64,000 nt of DNA, from contig NZ_CP149787.1 in the NCBI RefSeq assembly GCF_037914945.1, positions 3,224,001 to 3,288,000 on the forward strand, given 5' to 3'. Of this stretch, positions 8,022-20,261 are shown piece by piece; position 1 is the stretch's first letter; each line of letters opens with the position of its first letter. The stretch comes from Haloterrigena sp. KLK7 (lineage in GTDB: Archaea; Halobacteriota; Halobacteria; Halobacteriales; Natrialbaceae). The notes below the pieces were generated by a model, which was not told the origin of the DNA, searched no databases, and saw nothing but the letters and a program-made list of their open reading frames with translations. A program made the position numbers and the translations under genes.

Positions 8022-9356
8022 ATGTACGTACTGATCGTCGGCGCGGGACAGGTCGGCCAGATGATCGCCGCGAACCTCGCGGACACCCACGACGTCGCAG
8101 TGGTCGAACGCGATCCCGAACTCGCCGACGAGATCACGTACTCGTACGACGTACTTTCGGTCCAGGGCGACGGGACGGAACTCGAGACGCTTCGGGAGGC
8201 CGGCCTCGAGCGAGCGGATCTGGTCGTCGCGTGTACCGACAGCGACGAGACGAACATCGTCGTCTGTGGCACCGCCAAGACCGCCAGCGACGCGTTCTCC
8301 ATCGCGCGCGTCCGACGGCGGACGCTGCTGAACACGTGGGAGGGGTCCCAGGGCGCCTTCGGCGTGGACTTCATGGTCTGTACGGACCTGCTGGTCGCCC
8401 AGACGATCTTCCGGATCTCCGGCTTCCCGCGGGCGCAGGACGTCGAGACGTTCGCCGGCGGCCTCGTCAGGATGGCCGAGTTCGAGATCGGCCCGGAGAG
8501 CCCGCTGGTCGGGAGCCGCGTCGAGGAGGCCGACCGGTACGACTCGATGACGTTCGCCGCCGTCTTCCGGGAGGAGGAACTGATCGTCGCCCGCGGTGAC
8601 ACCCAGTTCCGCGCCGGCGACCGGATCGTCGTCATCGGGAGCCCCAGTTCCGTCAAGGAGTTCGCCATGGCGATGGTTCCGGACACGACCTCGAGCGCGG
8701 ACGACGTGGTCATCGTCGGCGGCAGCGAGATCGGCTTCCAGGCCGCCCGCGAGTTCGAGGCCCACGGCTTCGAGCCGCGGCTGATCGAACGGGACGAGAA
8801 GCGCGCCCGCGAGATGGCCGAGGCGCTGCCGCACACGTTCGTCATGCAGAGCGACGCGACCGACACCGACTTCCTCACCCGCGAGCACATCGACGAGGCC
8901 GACATCGTGGTCGCCGCCCTCGACAGCGACGAGAAGAACCTGCTGGTCTCCCTGCTGGCCCAGCGCGTCGGCGTCGGTCGGACGGTCGCGATCATCGAGA
9001 ACACCGAGTACACCGACCTCTTCGAGGCCGTCGGGATCGACGTCGCGATCAACCCCCGCGAGGAGACCGCCGAGGAGATCGTCCGCTTTACGCGGACGGA
9101 CCAGACCGAGAAGATCGCGATGTTAGAACACGACCGCGCCGAGGTCATCGAGGTCGAACTCGACGCGAACAGCGCCCTGACGGGCCGGGAGATCGCGGAG
9201 TCGATGGACGATCTGCCCGACTGCGTCGTCATCGGTGCGATCTCTCGGGGCGGCGACCTCGTCACGCCCCGCGGGACGACGGTCCCGCGGGCCGGCGACC
9301 ACGTCGTGTTGTTCGTCGACGCGGCCGCCCTCGACGAAGTGTCGGCGGTGCTCTGA
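8022..9356 (+). CDS. trkA: TrkA, two-RCK potassium uptake regulator subunit
   Basis: 444 residues built as two RCK units in tandem. RCK_N-1 carries the GAGQVGQMIAANL dinucleotide loop (residues 7-19) and ends in VVERD. RCK_C-1 (about 140-215) contains SPLVGSRVEEADRY. RCK_N-2 has VIVGGSEIGFQAA (about 228-240) and IERDEKRA. RCK_C-2 ends the protein (about 370-444). Cytosolic TrkA binds NAD(H)/ATP and gates membrane TrkH. The gene is monocistronic and converges on trkH1 with no gap: its stop codon ends at 9356 and the trkH1 stop begins at 9357. The other trkA genes nearby encode only one RCK unit. Confidence 0.92.
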   Translation: MYVLIVGAGQVGQMIAANLADTHDVAVVERDPELADEITYSYDVLSVQGDGTELETLREAGLERADLVVACTDSDETNIVVCGTAKTASDAFSIARVRRRTLLNTWEGSQGAFGVDFMVCTDLLVAQTIFRISGFPRAQDVETFAGGLVRMAEFEIGPESPLVGSRVEEADRYDSMTFAAVFREEELIVARGDTQFRAGDRIVVIGSPSSVKEFAMAMVPDTTSSADDVVIVGGSEIGFQAAREFEAHGFEPRLIERDEKRAREMAEALPHTFVMQSDATDTDFLTREHIDEADIVVAALDSDEKNLLVSLLAQRVGVGRTVAIIENTEYTDLFEAVGIDVAINPREETAEEIVRFTRTDQTEKIAMLEHDRAEVIEVELDANSALTGREIAESMDDLPDCVVIGAISRGGDLVTPRGTTVPRAGDHVVLFVDAAALDEVSAVL

Positions 9357-10904
9357 TCACCGGTAGAGGCCGAGCCGTCGGAAGATCGCTCCCAGCAACA
9401 CGGCGACGGGGATGATCTCGAGGCGGCCGACCCACATGTTGAGTATCAGCATCGCCTTCGCGGTATCGGGCATGCCCGGTCCGGTGATCCCCGAGTCGAG
9501 GCCGACGTTGCTCTGGGCGCTCATCACGTCGAAGACGACGTACTCGACGGGGTGCGCCGGCGAGAGCGTCCGCAGGAGGACGGCCACGCCGACGGCGAGG
9601 AACGCGATCCAGAGCAGGAAGACGACCGCCGCTTCGGTGTACTCCCGCTGGAACTGGTCCTCGCCGAGACTCCGCTTGCCGAGCCGGAGTCGCCGAATCG
9701 CGCTGTCCGGCTGGAAGACCGAGCCGATCTGCCAGGCCGTCCCCTTGACGAGCGTGATGACGCGGACGAGTTTGAGACCGCTGACCGTCGACCCCGCCGC
9801 GGCGCCGGTCAGCATTCCCAGACACGTCACGAACGTCGCTCCGGCCGACCAGACCGATTCCGTGCCCTCGCCGACCGTCGCCGTGCCGAAACCGGTGTTC
9901 GACGTCGCGGAGACGAACTGGAACAGCGAGATCCGGAACGTCTCCTCGAACGTCTCGTACTGTCCGTTGGCCCAGAGGATCGCGGTCAAGGCCAGCGACC
10001 CGATTCCGAACCAGAGGAAGACCCAGCGCGTCTGGACGTCCTCGTAGAAGTTCTCGAGTTCGCCCCTGAAGATCAGGTAGTGGACGGGGAAGGCGATGCT
10101 GCCCGCGACCATCACCGGAACGACCGCGTACTCGATGAGGGGGCTGCCGTAGTGGCCGATCGAGTCGGCGTGGACGGAGAATCCGCCGGTAGCGATCCCC
10201 GTCATCGCGTGATTGATCGCGTCCCACAGCGGCATGCCGACGAGGAGGAACAGCGCGATCGAGGCGAGCGTCAGTCCGAGGTAGATCTTCCAGATCTCCG
10301 TGACCGTGTTAACGATGCTGGGGTGGATCTTCTCGGAGCGGGCTTCGCTCTCGTAGAGCGTCAGCGACCCGCTGCCCGGGCGAGCGAGGATCGCGACGGT
10401 GAGGACGATGACGCCGACGCCGCCGATCCACTCCGTGAAGGAGCGCCACCAGTGCAGCGATCGAGGCAGTTCCTCCTCGACGGCGGCCACCGTCAGCCCC
10501 GTCCCGGTGAAGCCGCTCATGCACTCGAACACGGCATCGAGCGGATTCAGAAAGATATCCGTCGTGTCGTTCAACGGCGGCGTGTTCGCCCACGCCGGGA
10601 ACGGGTCGATCGCGATCGTCCACGCGATCAGCAGGAACGGGAGCGCGCCGAGGACGCCGACCGCCGCCCACGCGCCGGCCGCCGTAATCATCGCCTCGAG
10701 TTTGCCGGTGGTCGACGCGTCACGGTATCGGCGGGCGAGCGCGACGCCGATCCCGCCCATCGTGACCGCGGAGACGGCGAACGCGGGGATCGCGTAGAAC
10801 TCGCGGTTGATCGCGGCGACCGGGATCGAGACGACGAGCATGAGCGAGACGACCTGGACGATTCGACCGACGTCCCGTCCGACCGCCCGATATCGAACTC
10901 TCAT
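9357..10904 (-). CDS. trkH: TrkH family potassium uptake membrane protein (copy 1)
   Basis: 515 residues, four MPM repeats forming a K+ pore. Filter loops are seen at CMSGFTGTGLTV, ATGGFSVHADS, SATSNTGFGTATV and SAQSNVGLDSG, each holding the expected Gly. The cytosolic GSGSLTLYESEARSEKIHPS segment and the GAAAGSTVSGLKLVRV motif of the gating loop are present. The gene is read with the one-RCK trkA upstream: trkA stop and trkH start share ATGA (10901-10904), so the pair is co-translated. It is a close paralogue of the TrkH at 12386-13933, with long identical stretches even at silent sites. Confidence 0.93.
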   Translation of the reverse strand: MRVRYRAVGRDVGRIVQVVSLMLVVSIPVAAINREFYAIPAFAVSAVTMGGIGVALARRYRDASTTGKLEAMITAAGAWAAVGVLGALPFLLIAWTIAIDPFPAWANTPPLNDTTDIFLNPLDAVFECMSGFTGTGLTVAAVEEELPRSLHWWRSFTEWIGGVGVIVLTVAILARPGSGSLTLYESEARSEKIHPSIVNTVTEIWKIYLGLTLASIALFLLVGMPLWDAINHAMTGIATGGFSVHADSIGHYGSPLIEYAVVPVMVAGSIAFPVHYLIFRGELENFYEDVQTRWVFLWFGIGSLALTAILWANGQYETFEETFRISLFQFVSATSNTGFGTATVGEGTESVWSAGATFVTCLGMLTGAAAGSTVSGLKLVRVITLVKGTAWQIGSVFQPDSAIRRLRLGKRSLGEDQFQREYTEAAVVFLLWIAFLAVGVAVLLRTLSPAHPVEYVVFDVMSAQSNVGLDSGITGPGMPDTAKAMLILNMWVGRLEIIPVAVLLGAIFRRLGLYR

Positions 10905-11572
10905 GCTCGATCGCCGGTAAACGCCGCGACGGCGTCGGATAACGTCGCGTCGTCGGTGAACACCGTCACGTGGTCGTCCGCGTGAATCGTCGTCTCGCCC
11001 CTCGGTGCGCAGATCTCGCCGTCCCGCTGAAGCGCGACGACGAGACAGCCGTCCGGCAGCGAACCGGTCTCGATGGCCGTCTCGAGGCGCTGCCCGTTCA
11101 TCGGGGCGTCCTCGGTGACGGTCAGTTCGACGAGTTCGGTCTCCTCGTCGAGATCGACGAAGTCGCTGACGCCGGGATATCGAACGGAATGATAGAGGTA
11201 GTCGGCGATCAGTCGCTGCGGGTTCTCGATGAGGTTGACACCGATCTTCTCGAAGACGGGGAGGTTCTCGGGATCGTGGACGACGCTGACGAGGTTCGGG
11301 ACGTCGTGTTCCTGGGCGAGCAACATCACCATGATGTTGACCGCGTCGACGTCGGTCGTCGAAATGACCGCGTCCGCTCGGTCGACGTTCGCGTCCCGGA
11401 GCGTGTCGTGGTTCGTCGCGTCGGCGTTGAGCACGAGACAGTCGTACTCCGAGGCGACGTCGTTCGCCCGCCCCTCGTCGCTTTCGATCACGACGACGTC
11501 GTTGCCGTCGCGGACCGCGAGATCGATCAGGTTCGAGCCGATACTCCCTGCGCCGATAATGATAACATACAT
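10901..11572 (-). CDS. TrkA family protein with one RCK_N and one RCK_C domain (copy 1)
   Basis: 223 residues. The N-terminal Rossmann domain begins IIIGAGSIGSNLIDLAVRDG, with IESDEG ending strand 2, followed by HDPENLPVFEKIGVN. The RCK_C domain (about 140-223) has ELTVTEDAPMNGQRLE and ends in FTGDRA. It is the regulatory subunit for the TrkH encoded immediately downstream; a half-size RCK protein must assemble as a ring of more chains than the two-RCK TrkA. It follows uspA by 14 bp. By eye it differs from the second copy (13930-14601) at about 23 of 223 positions, most of them in the RCK_C domain. Confidence 0.92.
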   Translation of the reverse strand: MYVIIIGAGSIGSNLIDLAVRDGNDVVVIESDEGRANDVASEYDCLVLNADATNHDTLRDANVDRADAVISTTDVDAVNIMVMLLAQEHDVPNLVSVVHDPENLPVFEKIGVNLIENPQRLIADYLYHSVRYPGVSDFVDLDEETELVELTVTEDAPMNGQRLETAIETGSLPDGCLVVALQRDGEICAPRGETTIHADDHVTVFTDDATLSDAVAAFTGDRA

Positions 11573-11586
11573 CGTTGGTGTCTCCG

Positions 11587-12024
11587 TCAGGCGTCGTTCG
11601 AGTCCAGTCGCGAGAAGACGACGACCGGACGCTCGCACTCGGTGATCAGTCTGTACGAATCGGACCCCGACAGCAGTCGGTGGAGTCGGCCGCCGGATCG
11701 GGGCCGAAACCCGATGGCGGTCGCGTCGACGTCCGCGGCCGCGGCGGCGATTTCGTCGACGACGTCGGTCCCGTACCTGAGTTCGCGTCGGATTGGGAGG
11801 CCGTCGGGCAGCCGCTCCTCGACGATCGAGAAGATCCGGTCGGCCTGCGCTCGGCGCGCCTCGAGGGGCGCCTTGTCCGGGTATCCGTCCGTCTTTTCGA
11901 TGACGTGGACGACGGTGATCGTCTCGATCTCCTCGACGAACGACTCCAGCGAGTCGCACGTCGCCCGCGCGTCGCGCTCGGTCGCGACCGGGACGACCGT
12001 GTGCGTCGTGATCGAATCGGTCAT
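11587..12024 (-). CDS. Universal stress protein (UspA family), first gene of the uspA-trkA-trkH operon
   Basis: 145 residues with the alpha/beta USP fold: THTVVPVATERDA at the N-terminus, ITVVHVIEKT, then AIGFRPRSGGRLHRLLSGSDSYRLITECERPVVVFSR at the end. The nucleotide-binding G-2x-G-9x-G(S/T) motif of ATP-binding USPs is degenerate (RSGGRLHRLLSGSDS). USPs often accompany Trk and other ion transporters and are thought to sense ATP or stress. The gene heads a leftward operon with trkA and trkH (14 bp, then a 4-bp overlap). A truncated homologue is found at the same position in the duplicated block (14605-14710). Confidence 0.85.
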   Translation of the reverse strand: MTDSITTHTVVPVATERDARATCDSLESFVEEIETITVVHVIEKTDGYPDKAPLEARRAQADRIFSIVEERLPDGLPIRRELRYGTDVVDEIAAAAADVDATAIGFRPRSGGRLHRLLSGSDSYRLITECERPVVVFSRLDSNDA

Positions 12025-12120
12025 CGGTTCACCACCGCCGACGGAGCCGAGCGCTCGCAGCGCCGCGCTCCCGACGTGGCTGTCGACATCGTTCCATCAC
12101 TGCTGGCGTTACGGATTCAA

Positions 12121-12129
12121 TAATATAAA
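12121..12129 (-). promoter_or_regulatory. Probable TATA box of the uspA-trkA-trkH operon
   Basis: TTTATATTA on the minus strand sits in the only AT-rich stretch of this gap. It is about 97 bp before the uspA ATG, so a leader of roughly 70 nt is implied if it is used. Confidence 0.4.
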
Positions 12130-12385
12130 CCTAGCTGATTTGCGGATACAGAATCTCCCTTAAGTTCACTTATTTCGATGGTTGACTACCGAGCGGTTCT
12201 CGTCACACGCTCGAGCGCGCAACGGCTGCGAACGGTGGACTCGGCGCTCTTCGCGTGCACGTGATCGTCCGCTCACTGGGACGGGATCCGATAGCGACCG
12301 ACCACCGGCGAAAACGCGCGCAGCGGTGGTCCGACGGCCGTCGGTGTCGCCGACGCGACCGTCTCGAGCGACGAGGCGCCGACGG
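12130..12385. other. Intergenic region between the two trk blocks
   Basis: With the promoter stretch before it, this makes a 361-bp gap between uspA and the second trkH. Short open frames here are arginine-rich and overlap on both strands. No gene, repeat or second uspA trace is visible on this side of trkH2. Confidence 0.5.
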
Positions 12386-13933
12386 TCAGCGATAGAGATC
12401 GAGCCGCTGGAAGAACGCGCCCAACAGCACCGCGACGGGGATGATCTCGAGGCGCCCGATCCACATATTGAACAGCAGGACGGTCTTGGCGGCCGTCGGC
12501 ATTCCCGGACCGGTGATCCCGGTGTCCAGCCCCACGGTGCTCTGGGCGCTCATCACCTCGAAGATGACGTACTCGAGGGGGTATTCGGGGGGCAACGCCC
12601 ACAGGAAGACCGCGACGCCGACGGCGAGCCCGGCGATCCAGAGGACGAAGACGACGGCCGCCTCGGCGTACTCGCGCTGGGCCTGTGACTGATCGAGGGT
12701 GCGCTCGCCGAGCCGGAGTCGGCGAATCGCGCTGGCCGGCGCGAAGACGCTCCTGATCTGCCAGACCGTCCCCTTGACGAGCGTGATGACGCGGACGAGT
12801 TTGAGGCCACCGACGGTCGATCCGGCGGCCGCTCCGGTCAGCATCCCGAGACAGAGCAACAGCGTCGGCCCGGCCGTCCAGACGCGGTCGGTCCCCCCGC
12901 CGATCGACGCCGTTCCGAACCCGGCGTTCGACGTCGCGGAGACGAACTGGAACAGCGCGATCCGGAACGTCTCCCCGAGCGACTCGTACTGTCCCCCTGC
13001 AGAGAGCAGCGCCATCAGTGCGACCGAACCGACGGAAAACCAGATGAACACCCACCGGGTCTGGAGATCGGCGTAGACGTTGCGCAGTTCGCCCTTGATC
13101 AGCAGGTAGTGAATCGGGAACGCGATGCTACCGGCGACCATCACCGGAACGACCGCGTACTCGATGATCGGACTGCCGTAGTGGCCGATCGAGTCGGCGT
13201 GGACGGAGAACCCGCCCGTCGCGATGGCCGTCATCGCGTGGTTGATCGCGTCCCACAGCGGCATACCGGCGACGAAGAACAGGGCGATCGCAGCGAGCGT
13301 GATCCCGAGGTAAATCTTCCAGATCTCCGTGACCGTCGAGACGATGCTGGGATGGATCTTCTCGGAGCGGGCCTCGCTCTCGTAGAGCGTCAGCGACCCG
13401 CTGCCCGGGCGGGCGAGAATCGCGACGGTGAGGACGATGACGCCGACGCCGCCGATCCACTCCGTGAACGAGCGCCACCAGTGCAGCGACCGCGGGAGGT
13501 TCTCCTCGACGGCGGCCATCGTCAGCCCGGTGCTGGTGAAGCCGCTGATGCTCTCGAAGATCCCGTTGAGGGGATGTCGAAAGACGGCGACCGTGTCGGT
13601 CATCGGCGGCGTGTTCGCCCACGCGGGATACGGATCGAGCGCGATCGTCCACGCGATGAGCAGAAAGGGGAGGCTGCCGAAGACGCCGATCGTTCCCCAC
13701 GCGGCCGCCGCCGTGACCATCGCCTCGAGCCGACCGGTGTCCGACACGCCCCCGTATCGTCGCGCGAGTCCGATCCCGAGTCCGCCCATCACGACGGCCG
13801 AGCCGACGAACGCGGGGATCGCGTAGAACTCGCGGTTGATCGCGGCGACGAGGATCGAGACGAGCGCCATCAGCGAGACGACCTGCAGGATTCGACCGAG
13901 GTCCCGACCCACTGCCGAATACCGCACCCTCAT
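12386..13933 (-). CDS. trkH: TrkH family potassium uptake membrane protein (copy 2)
   Basis: 515 residues, the same length as copy 1. Filter loops read SISGFTSTGLTM, ATGGFSVHADS, SATSNAGFGTASI and SAQSTVGLDTG. The segment from LPRSLHWWRSFTEW to ARSEKIHPSIV is identical to copy 1, while the first-filter region and several helices differ (for example CMSGFTGTG against SISGFTSTG). It forms the membrane pore for the RCK protein encoded just upstream, with a 4-bp ATGA overlap (13930-13933). The uneven pattern of identity suggests duplication followed by either gene conversion or selection on the gating region. Confidence 0.93.
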   Translation of the reverse strand: MRVRYSAVGRDLGRILQVVSLMALVSILVAAINREFYAIPAFVGSAVVMGGLGIGLARRYGGVSDTGRLEAMVTAAAAWGTIGVFGSLPFLLIAWTIALDPYPAWANTPPMTDTVAVFRHPLNGIFESISGFTSTGLTMAAVEENLPRSLHWWRSFTEWIGGVGVIVLTVAILARPGSGSLTLYESEARSEKIHPSIVSTVTEIWKIYLGITLAAIALFFVAGMPLWDAINHAMTAIATGGFSVHADSIGHYGSPIIEYAVVPVMVAGSIAFPIHYLLIKGELRNVYADLQTRWVFIWFSVGSVALMALLSAGGQYESLGETFRIALFQFVSATSNAGFGTASIGGGTDRVWTAGPTLLLCLGMLTGAAAGSTVGGLKLVRVITLVKGTVWQIRSVFAPASAIRRLRLGERTLDQSQAQREYAEAAVVFVLWIAGLAVGVAVFLWALPPEYPLEYVIFEVMSAQSTVGLDTGITGPGMPTAAKTVLLFNMWIGRLEIIPVAVLLGAFFQRLDLYR

Positions 13934-14601
13934 GAGTGGTCGTCGGTAAACGCCGCGACCGCGTCGGCCAGCGCCGTGTCGTCGGTGAACACCGTCACCT
14001 GATCGCCGGCCCGAATCGTCGTGTCGCCCCGCGGGGCGCGGATCTCGTCGCCGCGTTTGAGCGCGACGACGAGGCAGCCGTCCGGCAGCGAACCGGTCTC
14101 GATGGCCGTCTCGAGGCGTTGGCCGTCCATCGGGGCGCCCTCGGTGACGGTCAGTTCGACGAGTTCGGTCTCCTCGTCGAGGTCGATGAAGTCGCTGACG
14201 CTGGGATACCGGACCGAGTGGTAGAGGTAGTCGGCGATCAGTCGCTGCGGGTTCTCGATGAGGTTGACACCGATCTTCTCGAAGACGGGGAGGTTCTCGG
14301 GGTCGTGGACGACGCTGACGAGGTTCGGGACGTCGTGCTCCTGGGCGAGCAACATCACCATGATGTTGACCGCGTCGATGTCGGTCGTCGAGATGACGGC
14401 GTCCGCGCGGTCGATGCTCGCATCTCGGAGCGTGTCGTGGTTCGTCGCGTCGGCGTTGAGCACGAGACAGTCGTATTCCGAGGCGACGTCGTTCGCCCGC
14501 CCCTCGTCGCTTTCGATCACGACGACGTCGTTGCCGTCGCGGACCGCGAGGTCGATCAAGTTCGAGCCGATGCTGCCGGCGCCGATGATAACGATATACA
14601 T
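13930..14601 (-). CDS. TrkA family protein with one RCK_N and one RCK_C domain (copy 2)
   Basis: 223 residues starting at MYIVIIGAGSIGSN. The Rossmann domain is nearly identical to copy 1: about 7 differences in the first 150 residues. The last 73 residues (RCK_C) hold about 16 changes, such as KRGDEIRAPRGDTT against QRDGEICAPRGETT. RCK_C is where K+ channel regulators bind small effectors, so the two copies may answer different signals; that is inference. A longer in-frame start at 14652 is rejected since copy 1 starts at the same MY. The remains of a uspA gene lie directly upstream. Confidence 0.92.
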   Translation of the reverse strand: MYIVIIGAGSIGSNLIDLAVRDGNDVVVIESDEGRANDVASEYDCLVLNADATNHDTLRDASIDRADAVISTTDIDAVNIMVMLLAQEHDVPNLVSVVHDPENLPVFEKIGVNLIENPQRLIADYLYHSVRYPSVSDFIDLDEETELVELTVTEGAPMDGQRLETAIETGSLPDGCLVVALKRGDEIRAPRGDTTIRAGDQVTVFTDDTALADAVAAFTDDHS

Positions 14602-14604
14602 GTT

Positions 14605-14710
14605 CAGTCTTCCCCTGCTGATGGTTCGAGTCGCATTTCGAGCGTCCGACAACGGGTTGTTCGCTTTCGATTATTAATCTGTACGACTCGACGGCCGAAA
14701 GCAATCCGAC
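14605..14710 (-). pseudogene. Relic of a uspA 3' end upstream of trkA copy 2
   Basis: Reading leftwards from about 14710, the frame gives LLSAVESYRLIIESEQPVVGRSKCDSN. The end of the intact UspA at 11587-12024 reads LLSGSDSYRLITECERPVVVFSRLDSN. At the DNA level the shared TCGTACAGA core lies at the same distance from the following trkA ATG in both blocks. The frame upstream of LLS no longer matches UspA and the stop codon is lost, so this is a truncated leftover of an ancestral uspA-trkA-trkH block. Changed bases are mostly towards A/T and create AGATTAATAAT, a possible TATA-like element for trkA copy 2. Confidence 0.75.
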
Positions 14711-14901
14711 GAGCGCGAGCGTGATACACGCCGTCCGCCGGCGACACCGGTTGCGAACGGACTGGAACGGACCGCGTACCGAACGACCGCCGTCGATAGT
14801 CCGTCATACTTCGTTCCGATTGGAGGGCAGTCACGTCGCTAGGTGTTTCGGCGGGCGATCAAAAAGCAGAAGCCTTCAGGCACGTGGGCGTACCCGGGAC
14901 C
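14711..14901. other. Divergent promoter region between trkA copy 2 and the Lrp-RCK_C gene
   Basis: About 190 bp, GC-rich except for ATCAAAAAGCAGAAG near 14857-14871, which may serve the rightward regulator gene. No open frame here resembles a protein. Confidence 0.4.
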
Positions 14902-15642
14902 ATGAGTATCCGTCTCGACGAGGTGAACAAGCGAATCATCCACGCGTTGATGGACGACGCGCGGAACACGTCGGCGCCGATGATCGCCGACGAGGTCGGC
15001 GTCTCTCCGGCGACGATCCGAAACCGTATCGACCGACTCGAGGAGGCCGGGATCATCACGGGGTATCACGCGAACGTCGACTTCGACGCCGCCGACGAGA
15101 TGCTCACGACGCTGTACGTGGCCACGGCGCCCGTCGAGGACCGCGCGCGACTCGCCCAGCAGGCCCGGGCGATCACCGGCGTCGTCAACGTCCGGGAGTT
15201 CGTGGCCGGGCGGGAGAACCTCCACGTGCTCGCCGTCGGGAGCGACGTCGACGCGCTCAACGGCGTCGTCCGAGAGCTCACCGCGCTGGGCCTCGAGATC
15301 GACGACGAGAAGATGATCCAGCGAGAGCAGTTTCAGGCCTACCAGCCGTTCGGGCCGGCCGAGTCCCACCAGCAGTTCTCCGACTACATCAGTCTCGCCG
15401 GCGGCAACGAGGTCGTCGAACTGACCGTCGACGACGACGCGCCGATCGTCGGGAAGACCTTAGCACAGGCCGGCCGCGACGCCGTCCTCGAGGACGGCGT
15501 GCTCGTCGTCTCGATCGAACGCGACGACACCGTACTGACGCCGACGGGAGAGAGCGAGATTCGCGCCGGCGACCTGCTGACGGTGCTCTCTCGGGGCGGG
15601 ATCACGGAATCCATGCTGAACGCGTTCGAAGCCGACGACTGA
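14902..15642 (+). CDS. Lrp/AsnC-family regulator fused to an RCK_C (TrkA-C) domain
   Basis: 246 residues. The N-terminus is an Lrp-type HTH (about 1-55): LDEVNKRIIHALMDDARN, then SPATIRNRIDRLEEAGIITG. The RAM-like ligand/oligomer domain follows (about 60-140; LYVATAPVEDRARLAQQARA, GVVNVREFVAGREN). The C-terminus (about 165-246) is a TrkA-C domain: NEVVELTVDDDAPIVGKTL, DTVLTPTGESEIRAGDLLTVLS. RCK_C domains bind regulatory ligands in K+ channels. Its position, divergent from the trk copy-2 operon, makes it a candidate regulator of the trk genes. The start at the ATG at 14902 gives the usual MSIRLDEVNKR beginning. Confidence 0.88.
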   Translation: MSIRLDEVNKRIIHALMDDARNTSAPMIADEVGVSPATIRNRIDRLEEAGIITGYHANVDFDAADEMLTTLYVATAPVEDRARLAQQARAITGVVNVREFVAGRENLHVLAVGSDVDALNGVVRELTALGLEIDDEKMIQREQFQAYQPFGPAESHQQFSDYISLAGGNEVVELTVDDDAPIVGKTLAQAGRDAVLEDGVLVVSIERDDTVLTPTGESEIRAGDLLTVLSRGGITESMLNAFEADD

Positions 15643-15725: not shown

Positions 15726-18038
15726 TCAGTCCGTTCTCGTCGTCTCGGATTCGGGGTTCGGCGTCGACGGCTCCGGAGTCACGCCCGTCTCCGCGTCGCT
15801 TCGGTCGCCGTTCCCGGAGCCGAAGATCCGCTCGCGAACGGAGCGTTTGTGGCGCTTCTCGGCGAGCAGCACCGAACAGTCGACGTCTTCGAGGACGTCG
15901 AGCACGAGCGAGCCGCGAACGACCCGCGAGAGCAGCCCCTTCTCCGTCGCGCCGATGACCAGCAGCGTCGCGTCCGCCGCCGCGTCGCCGATGCTCCGCT
16001 GGACGTCGCCCGTCTCGACGGTGAGCGTCGCGTCCGACAGCTCGCGTTCGTCGGCCCACGACTCGAGGAACGCGCGTCCCTGCTGGGGATCGTCCGCGAC
16101 GTGGAGGAGGGTCACCTCGGCGTCGTACTGGTCGCGCAGACAGCGCGCGACGGCCGCCGCGAGGTCGGAGTCCGGACCGCCCGCGGTCGGGAGGAGGATC
16201 CGTGACGGGTCGAACCCGCGGTCGCGGAAGACCAGGAAGTCACACGGCAGCGAGTGGGCGAGTTCGTCGGTCCTGCTCTCCACGCGGCCCGACGATCCCA
16301 GCGAGTCCGGCCCCCAGCCCATCACGCAGACGTCGGCGTCGTAGCGCGTGGCGGCGTCGAACACTTCCTCGACGCCGCGGTGGGAGAGGACCACGTGGGT
16401 CTCCACGTCGACGCCGTACGTCTCGGCGTCGGCTCGCGCCTGCTCGACCAGGTGTTCGGCCGCCTCGTAGTCCTGCTGGTCGCGTGCGGCCGTCAGCGAC
16501 GTCTGGTCGGGGACCTGCTCGACGTTGACGGCGACGACCGTCCCGTCGTTCCGGTCGGCGATCGCCGAGGCGAGCGTGATCAGGTGTTTCTCGTGGGCGG
16601 GGTTCGCGAGCGGGACCATCACTCGGTAGTCGCCGCCCTCCGGTTTGACCGCCGTCGTCGCCGACACCGCCGCGTCGGGGAGTTCGTCGGACCGCTCGAG
16701 GACGTAGTCGGCGAGCACGCCCTGCGATTCGATCTCCGACCGAGCGTAGCCGAGGTACCAGACGAGTCCGAAGACGACGAACGCCATCGAGAGGAGGATG
16801 ACGGTCGGCTCCATGAACGCGATCAGCGCGAGCGAGAGCACCGCGCCCAGAATCGGCGTGATGGGATACAGCGGCACTTCGAAGTCGGGCTCGTAGCCGG
16901 CGGGGTCCGCCTCGCGGAAGACGATCAGCGCGAGATTCAGGAGCCCGTAGACGATGAGATGGAGGACGCTGCCGGCCGACGCCAGCATCTCGAGGTTACC
17001 CAACGCGATGAACAGCAGGATGAGCGCGCCCGTGATCGCGATCGCGCGGTACGGCGTCGCGAACCGCGGGTGGATCTCGTTGATCTTCGGCGAGACGAGC
17101 TTGTCCCGGCCCATCGCGAAGTTGATCCGCGAGGACGCGAGGATCGAGGCGTTGGCCGACGAGGCGGTCGCCAGCAGGCCGCCGAACAGCAGCGCCGCGG
17201 CCCCCGCCGGTCCCATCAGCATCCGGGCGACGTCGACGACGGCCGTCTCGTTGTTCGCGACGACCTCGGTCTCGACGGCGGCAAGCACTGTCAGGAGGAT
17301 CAGGGCGTACATCACGGTCACGATGACGACGCTTCCGATGACCGCCCGCGGCAGGTTGCGGCCGGGGTTTTGAATCTCCTCGCCGACGGACGTGATCTGA
17401 ACGAACCCGAGGTAGGAAACGAAGACGAGTCCCGTCACCGGGAGGAGCGGCGCCCAGCCGAAGGGGTCGATGGGACGGAGCGTCTCCAGATCGGCGTTCA
17501 GGAGTCCGAACAGCGTGAAGACCGCCAGAATACCGACCAGCGTGACGACGATGATGTTCTGTAACCGGCCGGTCTCCTTCGCGCCGACGTAGTTGACGGT
17601 GATGAAGAAGGCGGCGCCGACCAGCCCGATCAACTGGGCCGACTCGAGGCCGACGGGACCGAGCGCCACCGCCGGGACGCTCACGAACTGGTTGACGTAC
17701 TCGCCGAACCCGTACATGTAGAACGCGGAGGCGAACGCCAGCCCCATCCAGTTCCCCCAGCCGGCGATCGAGCCGAACAGCGGCCCGAGCCCCTGGTTGA
17801 CGTAGTAGTAGGCCCCGCCGGAGACGGGCATCGCCGTCCCGAGTTCGGACGCCGAGAGCGCCGTGAACAGGGCGATCACGCCGCCGATGACGAACGCCAG
17901 CGACGCCAGCGGCCCGAGATCCGCGACGGCCTCCCCTGGGAGGACGAAGATACCCGCGCCGATCATCGTCCCGACGCCGATCGTTAGCGCGGCGAGCGGT
18001 CCGAGGTCCTTGGCGAGTTCCTCGTCGCTCCCGCTCAT
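15726..18038 (-). CDS. APC-family amino acid permease fused to two USP domains
   Basis: 770 residues. Residues about 10-430 are a 12-14-helix APC transporter starting with [20 protein letters not shown], with [19 protein letters not shown] and [21 protein letters not shown] as family motifs. The cytosolic C-terminus has two USP-like units: about 465-595 ([30 protein letters not shown]) and about 600-735 ([39 protein letters not shown]). The second carries the ATP-type G-2x-G-9x-G-S spacing. It probably imports an amino acid or polyamine under USP control. A Ser/Thr/Pro-rich tail ends the chain. Confidence 0.9.
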
Positions 18039-18722: not shown

Positions 18723-20261
18723 ATGAATATACGAGTCGATTGGCGGGCGAGCGTCGCGCTGACTGGTACCGTTCTCAAGTATCTCGCCCTGACGCTGCTC
18801 GTACCGCTGGTCGTCGCCGTCATCTATCGCGAGGATATCCTCGTGTTCGTAGCGACGATCGGGATCGTCGTTGCCATCGGGTACGGACTCGAGCGACTCG
18901 ATCCCGATCCCGACTTGCAACCGCGAGAAGCGTTGCTGCTGGTCGCGATCTCGTGGCTCGTGGTCGCGATCGTCGGTGCGATCCCGTATCTCATCGCCGG
19001 CTACGGGACCGAATCCGCGCTCAGACATCCGGTGAACGCGCTGTTCGAGTCGATGTCCGGGTTCACGACGACCGGGGCGACCGTGATGGCCGCGATCTCC
19101 GTCGAACAGCACTCCCACGCCCTCATGATGTGGCGCCAGCTCACTCAGTGGCTCGGCGGGATGGGGATCATCGTGTTGATGATCGCGATCCTGCCGGAGC
19201 TGGCGGTCAACGGCGCACAACTGATCCGCTCCGAGGCGCCGGGTCCGGAGCTGCAGAAGCTCACGCCGAAGATCGCCGAGACGGCGCGCATTCTCTGGCT
19301 CGTCTACTTCGGGTTCACGATCGTCTACATCGCGCTCCTCTACGGACTCCACCTCGGGGGGCTGGCGCCGAACATGAACTTCTACAACGCTGTCGCCCAC
19401 GGCTTCACGACGCTGCCGACCGGCGGGTTCTCGCCGAAAGCAGACAGCATCGCCGCGTTCTCCGCCGCCGTCCAGTGGGTCGTCATCCCCTTCATGGCGG
19501 TCGCCGGAACTAACTTCGCGCTCTTCTGGTACGTGTTGGACGGCGAACCGGGACGACTCTTCGAGAACACCGAGTTCCGCGCCTACGCGGGTGCGATCGC
19601 CGTCGTGACCGCGATCGTGGCCGCGTTGCTCTACAGCGGCAGCGCCCCGCCGCTCGGCGACCTCGGCGGCGCGACCGAGGGATACGGCGAGAGCGCGCTG
19701 CGCCACGCGGCCTTCCAGACCGTCTCCCTGCTGAACTCGACGGGGTACGCGACGAGCGACTTCGCGCAGTGGGACCCGATCGCACAGACCGTCCTCCTGA
19801 TCACGATGTTCATCGGCGGCTGCGCCGGCTCGACCGGCGGCGGCGTCAAGATCATCCGCTGGCTGGTCGTCCTGAAAGTCGCCCGCCGGGAGCTGTTCAC
19901 CGCCGCCCACCCCGAGGCCGTCCAGCCGATTCGGCTCGGCGGCTACGTCGTCGACGAGGACGTCATCCGCGGCGTCCTCGGCTTCACGCTGCTGTACCTG
20001 TTCATCTTCGTGATCGCGACGGTGTTCATCGCCGTCGATTCGACCCGCGGCGCGGTCTCGCTCCAGCCGATCGACGCCATCAGCGCCAGCATCGCGACGA
20101 TCGGGAACATCGGACCGGGCTTCGGCGACCTCGGTCCCTTCGGCAGCTACCGCGAGTTCCCCGTCACCTCGAAGCTCGTGATGATCTTCCTCATGTGGAT
20201 CGGCCGTCTCGAGATCATTCCGGCGCTCGTGCTGTTCACCGGGGCGTTCTGGAAACGGTGA
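18723..20261 (+). CDS. TrkH/KtrB family potassium transporter (divergent third copy)
   Basis: 512 residues, four pore repeats with filter loops SMSGFTTTGATV, TTLPTGGFSPKADS, LNSTGYATSDF and SIATIGNIGPGFG. It differs throughout from the two tandem TrkH copies and looks closer to the bacterial TrkH branch; GGCAGSTGGGVKIIRWLVV is the gating-loop motif. The N-terminus (MNIRVDWRASVALTGTVLKYL) is a normal short cytosolic start. It has no RCK gene in its operon, so it would have to use one of the TrkA proteins encoded nearby. It stands alone, divergent from the small membrane protein. Confidence 0.9.
   Translation: MNIRVDWRASVALTGTVLKYLALTLLVPLVVAVIYREDILVFVATIGIVVAIGYGLERLDPDPDLQPREALLLVAISWLVVAIVGAIPYLIAGYGTESALRHPVNALFESMSGFTTTGATVMAAISVEQHSHALMMWRQLTQWLGGMGIIVLMIAILPELAVNGAQLIRSEAPGPELQKLTPKIAETARILWLVYFGFTIVYIALLYGLHLGGLAPNMNFYNAVAHGFTTLPTGGFSPKADSIAAFSAAVQWVVIPFMAVAGTNFALFWYVLDGEPGRLFENTEFRAYAGAIAVVTAIVAALLYSGSAPPLGDLGGATEGYGESALRHAAFQTVSLLNSTGYATSDFAQWDPIAQTVLLITMFIGGCAGSTGGGVKIIRWLVVLKVARRELFTAAHPEAVQPIRLGGYVVDEDVIRGVLGFTLLYLFIFVIATVFIAVDSTRGAVSLQPIDAISASIATIGNIGPGFGDLGPFGSYREFPVTSKLVMIFLMWIGRLEIIPALVLFTGAFWKR

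Follow-up and report, generated by a model that had tools for sequence, protein, structure and literature searches.

An Lrp-type regulator with a TrkA-like RCK_C domain and a predicted operator pair in a haloarchaeal cluster of duplicated trk genes

The cytoplasm of haloarchaea is very rich in K+ and, to our knowledge, the regulation of their Trk genes is poorly known. In Haloterrigena sp. KLK7, a gene for an Lrp-type regulator that ends in an RCK_C domain lies within a cluster of trk genes, which raises the question of whether this protein controls K+ uptake, from which promoter and in response to which ligand. A preliminary description of this DNA had proposed a direct route from the K+/nucleotide signal read by Trk gating subunits to transcription. 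The window analysed here is a 64,000-nucleotide stretch of the genome; the genes at issue are as follows.

14902-15642, plus strand: Lrp-TrkA_C fusion regulator (HTH, residues 5-53; RAM-like domain, residues 60-140; linker, residues ~140-160; RCK_C, residues 162-242)
13930-14601, minus strand: single-RCK trkA1, proximal copy (TrkA_N and TrkA_C by Pfam), divergent from the regulator
12386-13933, minus strand: trkH, proximal copy (PF02386, E = 1.2e-74)
11587-12024, minus strand: universal stress protein gene usp (PF00582, E = 4.6e-6), leading the predicted target operon
10901-11572, minus strand: single-RCK trkA1, distal copy (TrkA_C match)
9357-10904, minus strand: trkH, distal copy (PF02386, E = 3.3e-71)
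8022-9356, plus strand: two-RCK trkA (Pfam)
18723-20261, plus strand: third trkH of the cluster (Pfam)
15726-18038, minus strand: APC-family permease of the amino-acid type, with Usp domains at its C terminus; the conserved gene most often found near fusion regulators
14614-14704, minus strand: remnant of a usp C terminus (27 aa align to the intact usp at 59% identity)

The open reading frame begins at an ATG and encodes 246 amino acids. Pfam detects an AsnC-type HTH at residues 5-47 (PF13404, E = 2.2e-10) and TrkA_C at residues 171-229 (E = 6.2e-11; 42.5 bits, with a curated cut-off of 27), with no Pfam match to a RAM domain in the middle part. An AlphaFold2 model of the monomer, built from 78 homologues (mean pLDDT 90.6, pTM 0.61), has three domains: the HTH (7-48), a RAM-like domain with the order beta-alpha-beta-beta-alpha-beta (68-138) and RCK_C (162-242). 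The linker between the last two is modelled less confidently near residues 150-160 (pLDDT 63), and this and the pTM mean that the placement of RCK_C relative to the other domains is not fixed. In Foldseek searches, the first 140-150 residues match the Lrp/AsnC chains 4pcq and 2cyy and the halophilic Lrp 8q90, and the last 70-77 residues match RCK_C of TM1088 (3jxo, rmsd 1.1-1.4 Å) and of KtrA (6s2j); profile and fold matches span HTH and RAM together (for example, 7fby over residues 3-144 and 4pcq over about 150 residues). Pfam, AlphaFold2 and Foldseek bear out the earlier statement that an Lrp domain is joined to RCK_C, including the RCK_C fold for which a structure prediction had been named as the check, and they add the RAM-like domain that the earlier domain list, right on HTH and RCK_C, had left unmentioned. 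On these models and profiles, the protein is an Lrp/FFRP transcription factor of the Trh2 type, with HTH, diverged RAM and RCK_C. Residues R207, P214 and D224 of its RCK_C domain are invariant across 78 diverse fusions, a pattern common to the RCK_C domain of TrkA1.

The regulator is indeed divergent from a trk operon, as the preliminary description had it, with trkA1 (13930-14601) and trkH (12386-13933) both on the minus strand. The genome holds six TrkH loci, one of them short, and three of these lie in the window cluster. Two trk units within it, 9357-11678 and 12386-14706, are 83.6% identical over 2.3 kb, and the proximal copy stops within the usp C terminus. Judged by this alignment, the proximal unit is a truncated tandem duplicate that lost most of usp and its promoter; because of that truncation, the regulator faces a trk pair that lacks both usp and the usp promoter. 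Several relatives have the order TrkH-trkA1-usp facing the regulator, and two trkA1-trkH copies also occur in the relatives at loci L041-L043. On the other side of the regulator stands the APC-Usp permease; the genome encodes two full-length permeases of this kind (>55% identity), each adjoining one of its two fusion regulators. We considered this permease as a KimA-like K+ transporter and rejected the assignment, the best solved relatives being amino-acid transporters such as 6f34.

Is the association with trk genes a feature of this genome or of the fusion? Of 292 genomes sampled from the class, 183 have fusion matches at E <= 1e-45, and almost all of these matches are full-length; as far as such matches tell, the architecture is not a chance product and most of the class has retained it. 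Within five genes of 144 fusion genes from 140 loci, we counted an APC(-Usp) gene in 87 cases and TrkH in 56, approximate figures since the gene calls are automatic (a first pass with a six-gene span gave 98 and 54); APC directly adjoins the fusion in 63. TrkH neighbours recur in eight families across the fusion tree. Among 20 control loci of the most similar non-fusion Lrps, APC was adjacent in 9 and TrkH present in 1, and that sole locus also carries a fusion gene; for TrkH, the difference between fusions and non-fusion Lrps gives a Fisher p of 0.002, with related genomes that are not independent. The TrkH association is thus specific to fusions, and the APC link persists near the closest non-fusion Lrps. 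The earlier focus on Trk holds for the neighbours themselves; the most constant partner across relatives is the APC-Usp permease rather than Trk. Because the closest non-fusion Lrps lie beside APC genes with related palindromes (L180, L181 and L183), the APC link is probably older than the RCK_C fusion.

Some loci depart from this picture. In one fusion clade (L059-L070), the neighbours resemble, by eye, sugar-nucleotide or polysaccharide genes and not transporters, and the neighbourhood has strong motif sites, as at position 8350 of L067 (22.3 bits). The TrkA-C fusion described in Trh2 of Halobacterium salinarum by Plaisier et al. 2014 was said to be restricted to Halobacteriaceae (PMC4236453). 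This restriction is not upheld: genome G356, in the same phylum but outside class Halobacteria, encodes a full-length fusion of 35% identity (L328, G356:C2, 6992-7726). It faces a Usp gene and an APC gene that has a further Usp gene behind it, and no TrkH; the intergenic region has one 12.8-bit site, which is weak evidence in DNA of 35% GC.

The RCK_C end has a traceable relationship to the adjacent channel subunits. In a tree of RCK_C domains, short sequences with modest internal support values, each of the 39 sampled fusions had the domain of a single-RCK TrkA as its nearest non-fusion relative, and homology between fusion and TrkA1 extends to a short DFxxL segment that precedes RCK_C. The fused domain is closest to RCK_C of the neighbouring single-RCK TrkA, which gives substance to the link with Trk gating subunits drawn in the preliminary description. 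Because of the uniform tree placement and the DFxxL homology, the likely history is that an Lrp beside an APC permease gained RCK_C from a TrkA1 neighbour.

To which DNA might such a protein bind? Upstream of 78 thinned fusion genes, palindromes are enriched in one register (TACT-N5-AGTA, TTAC-N7-GTAA), and they yield a 17-bp palindromic matrix with the consensus ATTNCTGAWTCAGNAAT. Scores above 11 bits occur in 44-56% of held-out upstream regions against 2.4-2.8% of shuffles, in a split that is not clade-independent, the upstream regions of the training set being partly related to each other. The sites are also paired: of 75 second-site matches around strong sites, 45 lie 30-31 bp away, about three helical turns, and the remaining 107 distances together account for 30. 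The stretches upstream of fusion, trkA, trkH, APC or usp genes make up 6.6% of the sequence of the thinned loci and contain 56 of their 78 strong sites; many of the 56 are training sequences, and 20 are upstream of non-fusion gene types only. The palindrome, often as a pair, marks fusion, usp-trk and APC promoters among relatives. In sister loci (for example, L044, L045, L050, L051, L058 and L061) the fusion gene stands on one side of the pair and usp or trkA on the other, and in L041 and L043 the pair precedes usp or trkA1; sites of a similar kind also occur near the APC genes of related non-fusion Lrps. At the paralogue locus of the genome (L090, G000:C1:940631-955371) and its relatives (L072-L091), the APC/regulator intergenic region has two sites conserved in this clade, of the types ATTGCTGATTNCT and ATTGCCGTATCGGCA; they are separated by about 31 bp and have a TATA-like box on either side, the two boxes being divergent. 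Palindromic, helically phased paired sites are typical of the Lrp/AsnC family, and these pairs are consistent with Lrp-family assembly into dimers or octamers and with DNA binding by the regulator.

In the window, the matrix singles out one promoter, with these elements.

12108-12124, no strand assigned: predicted operator site 1, GTTACGGATTCAATAAT (19.7 bits, the top score of the 64 kb), overlapping the TATA-like element
12139-12155, no strand assigned: predicted operator site 2, TTTGCGGATACAGAATC (11.8 bits), at a distance of 31 bp from the first and across the TATA-like element
12120-12130, minus strand: TATA-like element TTTATATTA in the promoter of usp-trkA-trkH, identified in the alignment by eye

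The TATA-like element sits between the two palindromes and runs into site 1; a close variant is present in seven of seven aligned promoters, and relatives retain the overlap. When training excluded the whole clade, 12108-12124 (18.6 bits) and 12139-12155 (11.7 bits) were still the top two sites of the window, and the maximum in 200 shuffled windows was 17.3 bits against 18.6 for the first. A strict pattern, RTTNYKGAWTCMRNAAY, has a single match in the 4.64-Mb genome, at the window site, a count of strict-pattern matches rather than of a matrix scan. Across 292 genomes of the class it has 67 matches; of 30 that were retrieved, six have a related gene nearby; each of these six, the window site included, belongs to a fusion or usp-trk locus, and the other 24 look like background. 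Presence of the strict motif was accordingly rejected as a genome marker of the fusion, as background matches dominate and it does not discriminate. At up to three mismatches, the pattern shows no enrichment in the window, so the operator prediction depends on exact match, pairing and position.

The adjacent intergenic region between trkA1 and the regulator (14608-14901) has no site in the matrix scan, with a best score of 1.8 bits, and we attribute this to the adjoining trk copy being a truncated duplicate. The APC promoter of the window reaches no more than 6.4 bits. The promoter that we predict as the target is that of usp-trkA-trkH, at about 12030-12160, and not the adjacent one: the earlier expectation of a trk-promoter target gains support for the cluster, though not for the promoter next to the regulator.

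Domains and fold, neighbourhood, RCK_C relatedness, motif, pairing and position were each computed, and on them we build a model that we regard as probable, in which the regulator, under the control of an RCK_C ligand, occludes the TATA-like element and so represses K+ uptake through usp-trkA-trkH. The fusion protein would bind the paired 17-bp palindromes that flank and overlap the TATA-like element of usp-trkA-trkH (12024-9357) and, in relatives, like pairs that precede APC-Usp permease genes and the regulator's own gene; we infer this recognition from proximity. Bound protein would keep TBP/TFB off the promoter and so repress the K+ uptake genes. Repression, rather than activation, seems the most likely outcome because a site overlaps the TATA-like element, by analogy with archaeal promoter biology. 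DNA binding would be switched by a ligand that the RCK_C dimer probably has in common with TrkA1 RCK_C, so that a single signal would govern both the gating of the channel and the transcription of the operon.

The neighbour statistics allow a different emphasis, in which the regulator mainly controls the APC-Usp permease, as classical Lrps do, with Trk genes as neighbours in a common salt or osmotic setting and RCK_C only tuning oligomerisation. APC genes are the most frequent neighbours (87 of 144, 63 directly adjacent) and occur beside the closest non-fusion Lrps (9 of 20), both close APC-Usp genes of the genome adjoin fusion genes, and the out-of-class fusion faces Usp and APC genes with no TrkH. 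We nevertheless consider this emphasis unlikely, as the strong pair of the window is at the usp-trkA-trkH promoter, the APC promoter scoring 6.4 bits only, and the TrkH association is specific to fusions.

Slightly less probable still is that the pair is the site of another Lrp, such as the paralogue at G000:C1:947631 (54% identical), and that the fusion gene has another target. The HTH is similar across the clade, non-fusion sisters have related sites and the window regulator gene has no site in its own upstream region; the strongest sites and pairs, however, cluster around fusion genes in many genera, and in sister loci the pairs lie between the fusion gene and usp or trkA. We give very little credence to the idea that RCK_C is a structural leftover without ligand sensing, in a constitutive local regulator: the polar segment of the c-di-AMP pocket of BusR and KtrA is indeed not recognisably conserved, the matching segment being acidic and longer, but R207, P214 and D224 are invariant in 78 fusions, in the pattern of TrkA1 RCK_C, and most of the class retains the fusion. 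Repression of usp-trkA-trkH by the fusion protein is the reading that we carry forward.

What could the ligand be? In Trk and Ktr subunits, ATP and NAD(H) bind the RCK_N/Rossmann domain. The regulator has no PF02254 (TrkA_N) match in Pfam, which runs counter to the earlier claim that it reads the nucleotide signal of Trk; with RCK_C and no RCK_N, the ATP/NAD(H) site would be unusable, and sensing of ATP or NADH appears unlikely. The simplest guess is a ligand common to TrkA1, because both RCK_C domains have the same motif pattern. RCK_C of BusR, KtrA and CpaA binds c-di-AMP (PMC8517857), and Haloferax makes c-di-AMP, which is essential under standard conditions, in a study that named no TrkA, RCK or Lrp proteins as its targets (PMC6741144). 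The genome has a diadenylate cyclase domain gene; it lies at G000:C1:2854130-2856742, near a distant APC permease homologue (28% identity). In known receptors, the pocket helix has a hydrophobic pocket and a polar rim (Asn/Asp157, His160); the regulator segment differs, with an insertion relative to KtrC. We regard c-di-AMP as a possible ligand. It is a more speculative thought, and on balance a doubtful one, that the protein is an archaeal RCK_C second-messenger switch sharing its sensor with the adjacent TrkA gate, perhaps the first archaeal c-di-AMP-responsive transcription factor; if so, one signal would close the K+ channel and silence its operon. The fusion family is a candidate c-di-AMP target worth testing, and a named protein with an operator pair and a gate-type sensor domain makes K+-dependent transcription directly testable in haloarchaea.

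Several known systems bear on this reading. The regulator shares the HTH and ferredoxin-like RAM fold of Lrp/AsnC proteins (AldR, 4pcq; halophilic Lrp, 8q90) and differs from them in the extra RCK_C and in a RAM too diverged for Pfam. It shares the RCK_C fold with the single-RCK gating subunits TM1088 and KtrA, the neighbouring TrkA1 being closest in sequence, but unlike TrkA/KtrA it has no RCK_N and no ATP/NAD(H) site and is attached to a DNA-binding protein. The nearest functional precedent is BusR, likewise a DNA-binding domain with a C-terminal RCK_C, which responds to c-di-AMP and acts as the repressor of an osmolyte importer, contacting DNA at paired positions separated by a fixed distance (PMC8517857). 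BusR differs in being bacterial, with a GntR-type HTH and a coiled-coil ruler in place of Lrp HTH and RAM; the HTH found here is AsnC-type by Pfam, and the c-di-AMP pocket residues of BusR are not recognisable.

The closest relative in architecture is Trh2 (VNG1285G) of H. salinarum NRC-1, with the same HTH, diverged RAM and TrkA_C; two Lrp-TrkA_C proteins are also listed for Haloferax mediterranei (PMC8229911). The fusion and K+/NAD+ as the Trh2 effector, the latter as a proposal only, were published in 2014, when trh2 deletion gave no growth phenotype in the conditions used (PMC4236453), and to that extent the preliminary idea was not new. In the sampled H. salinarum genome (G136, L257/L145), the only match at E <= 1e-45 is 53% identical, with TrkH and a single-RCK trkA beside it, and we infer that this is the trh2 locus; the only 31-bp pair there is a weak one (7.9 and 4.7 bits). 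Relative to Trh2, the window represents a different genus, duplicated trk genes and a strong operator pair. What is new here are the predictions of a trk target and of the origin of the sensor end, the neighbour statistics and the paired motif, which give a known architecture a well-supported prediction of a new regulon.
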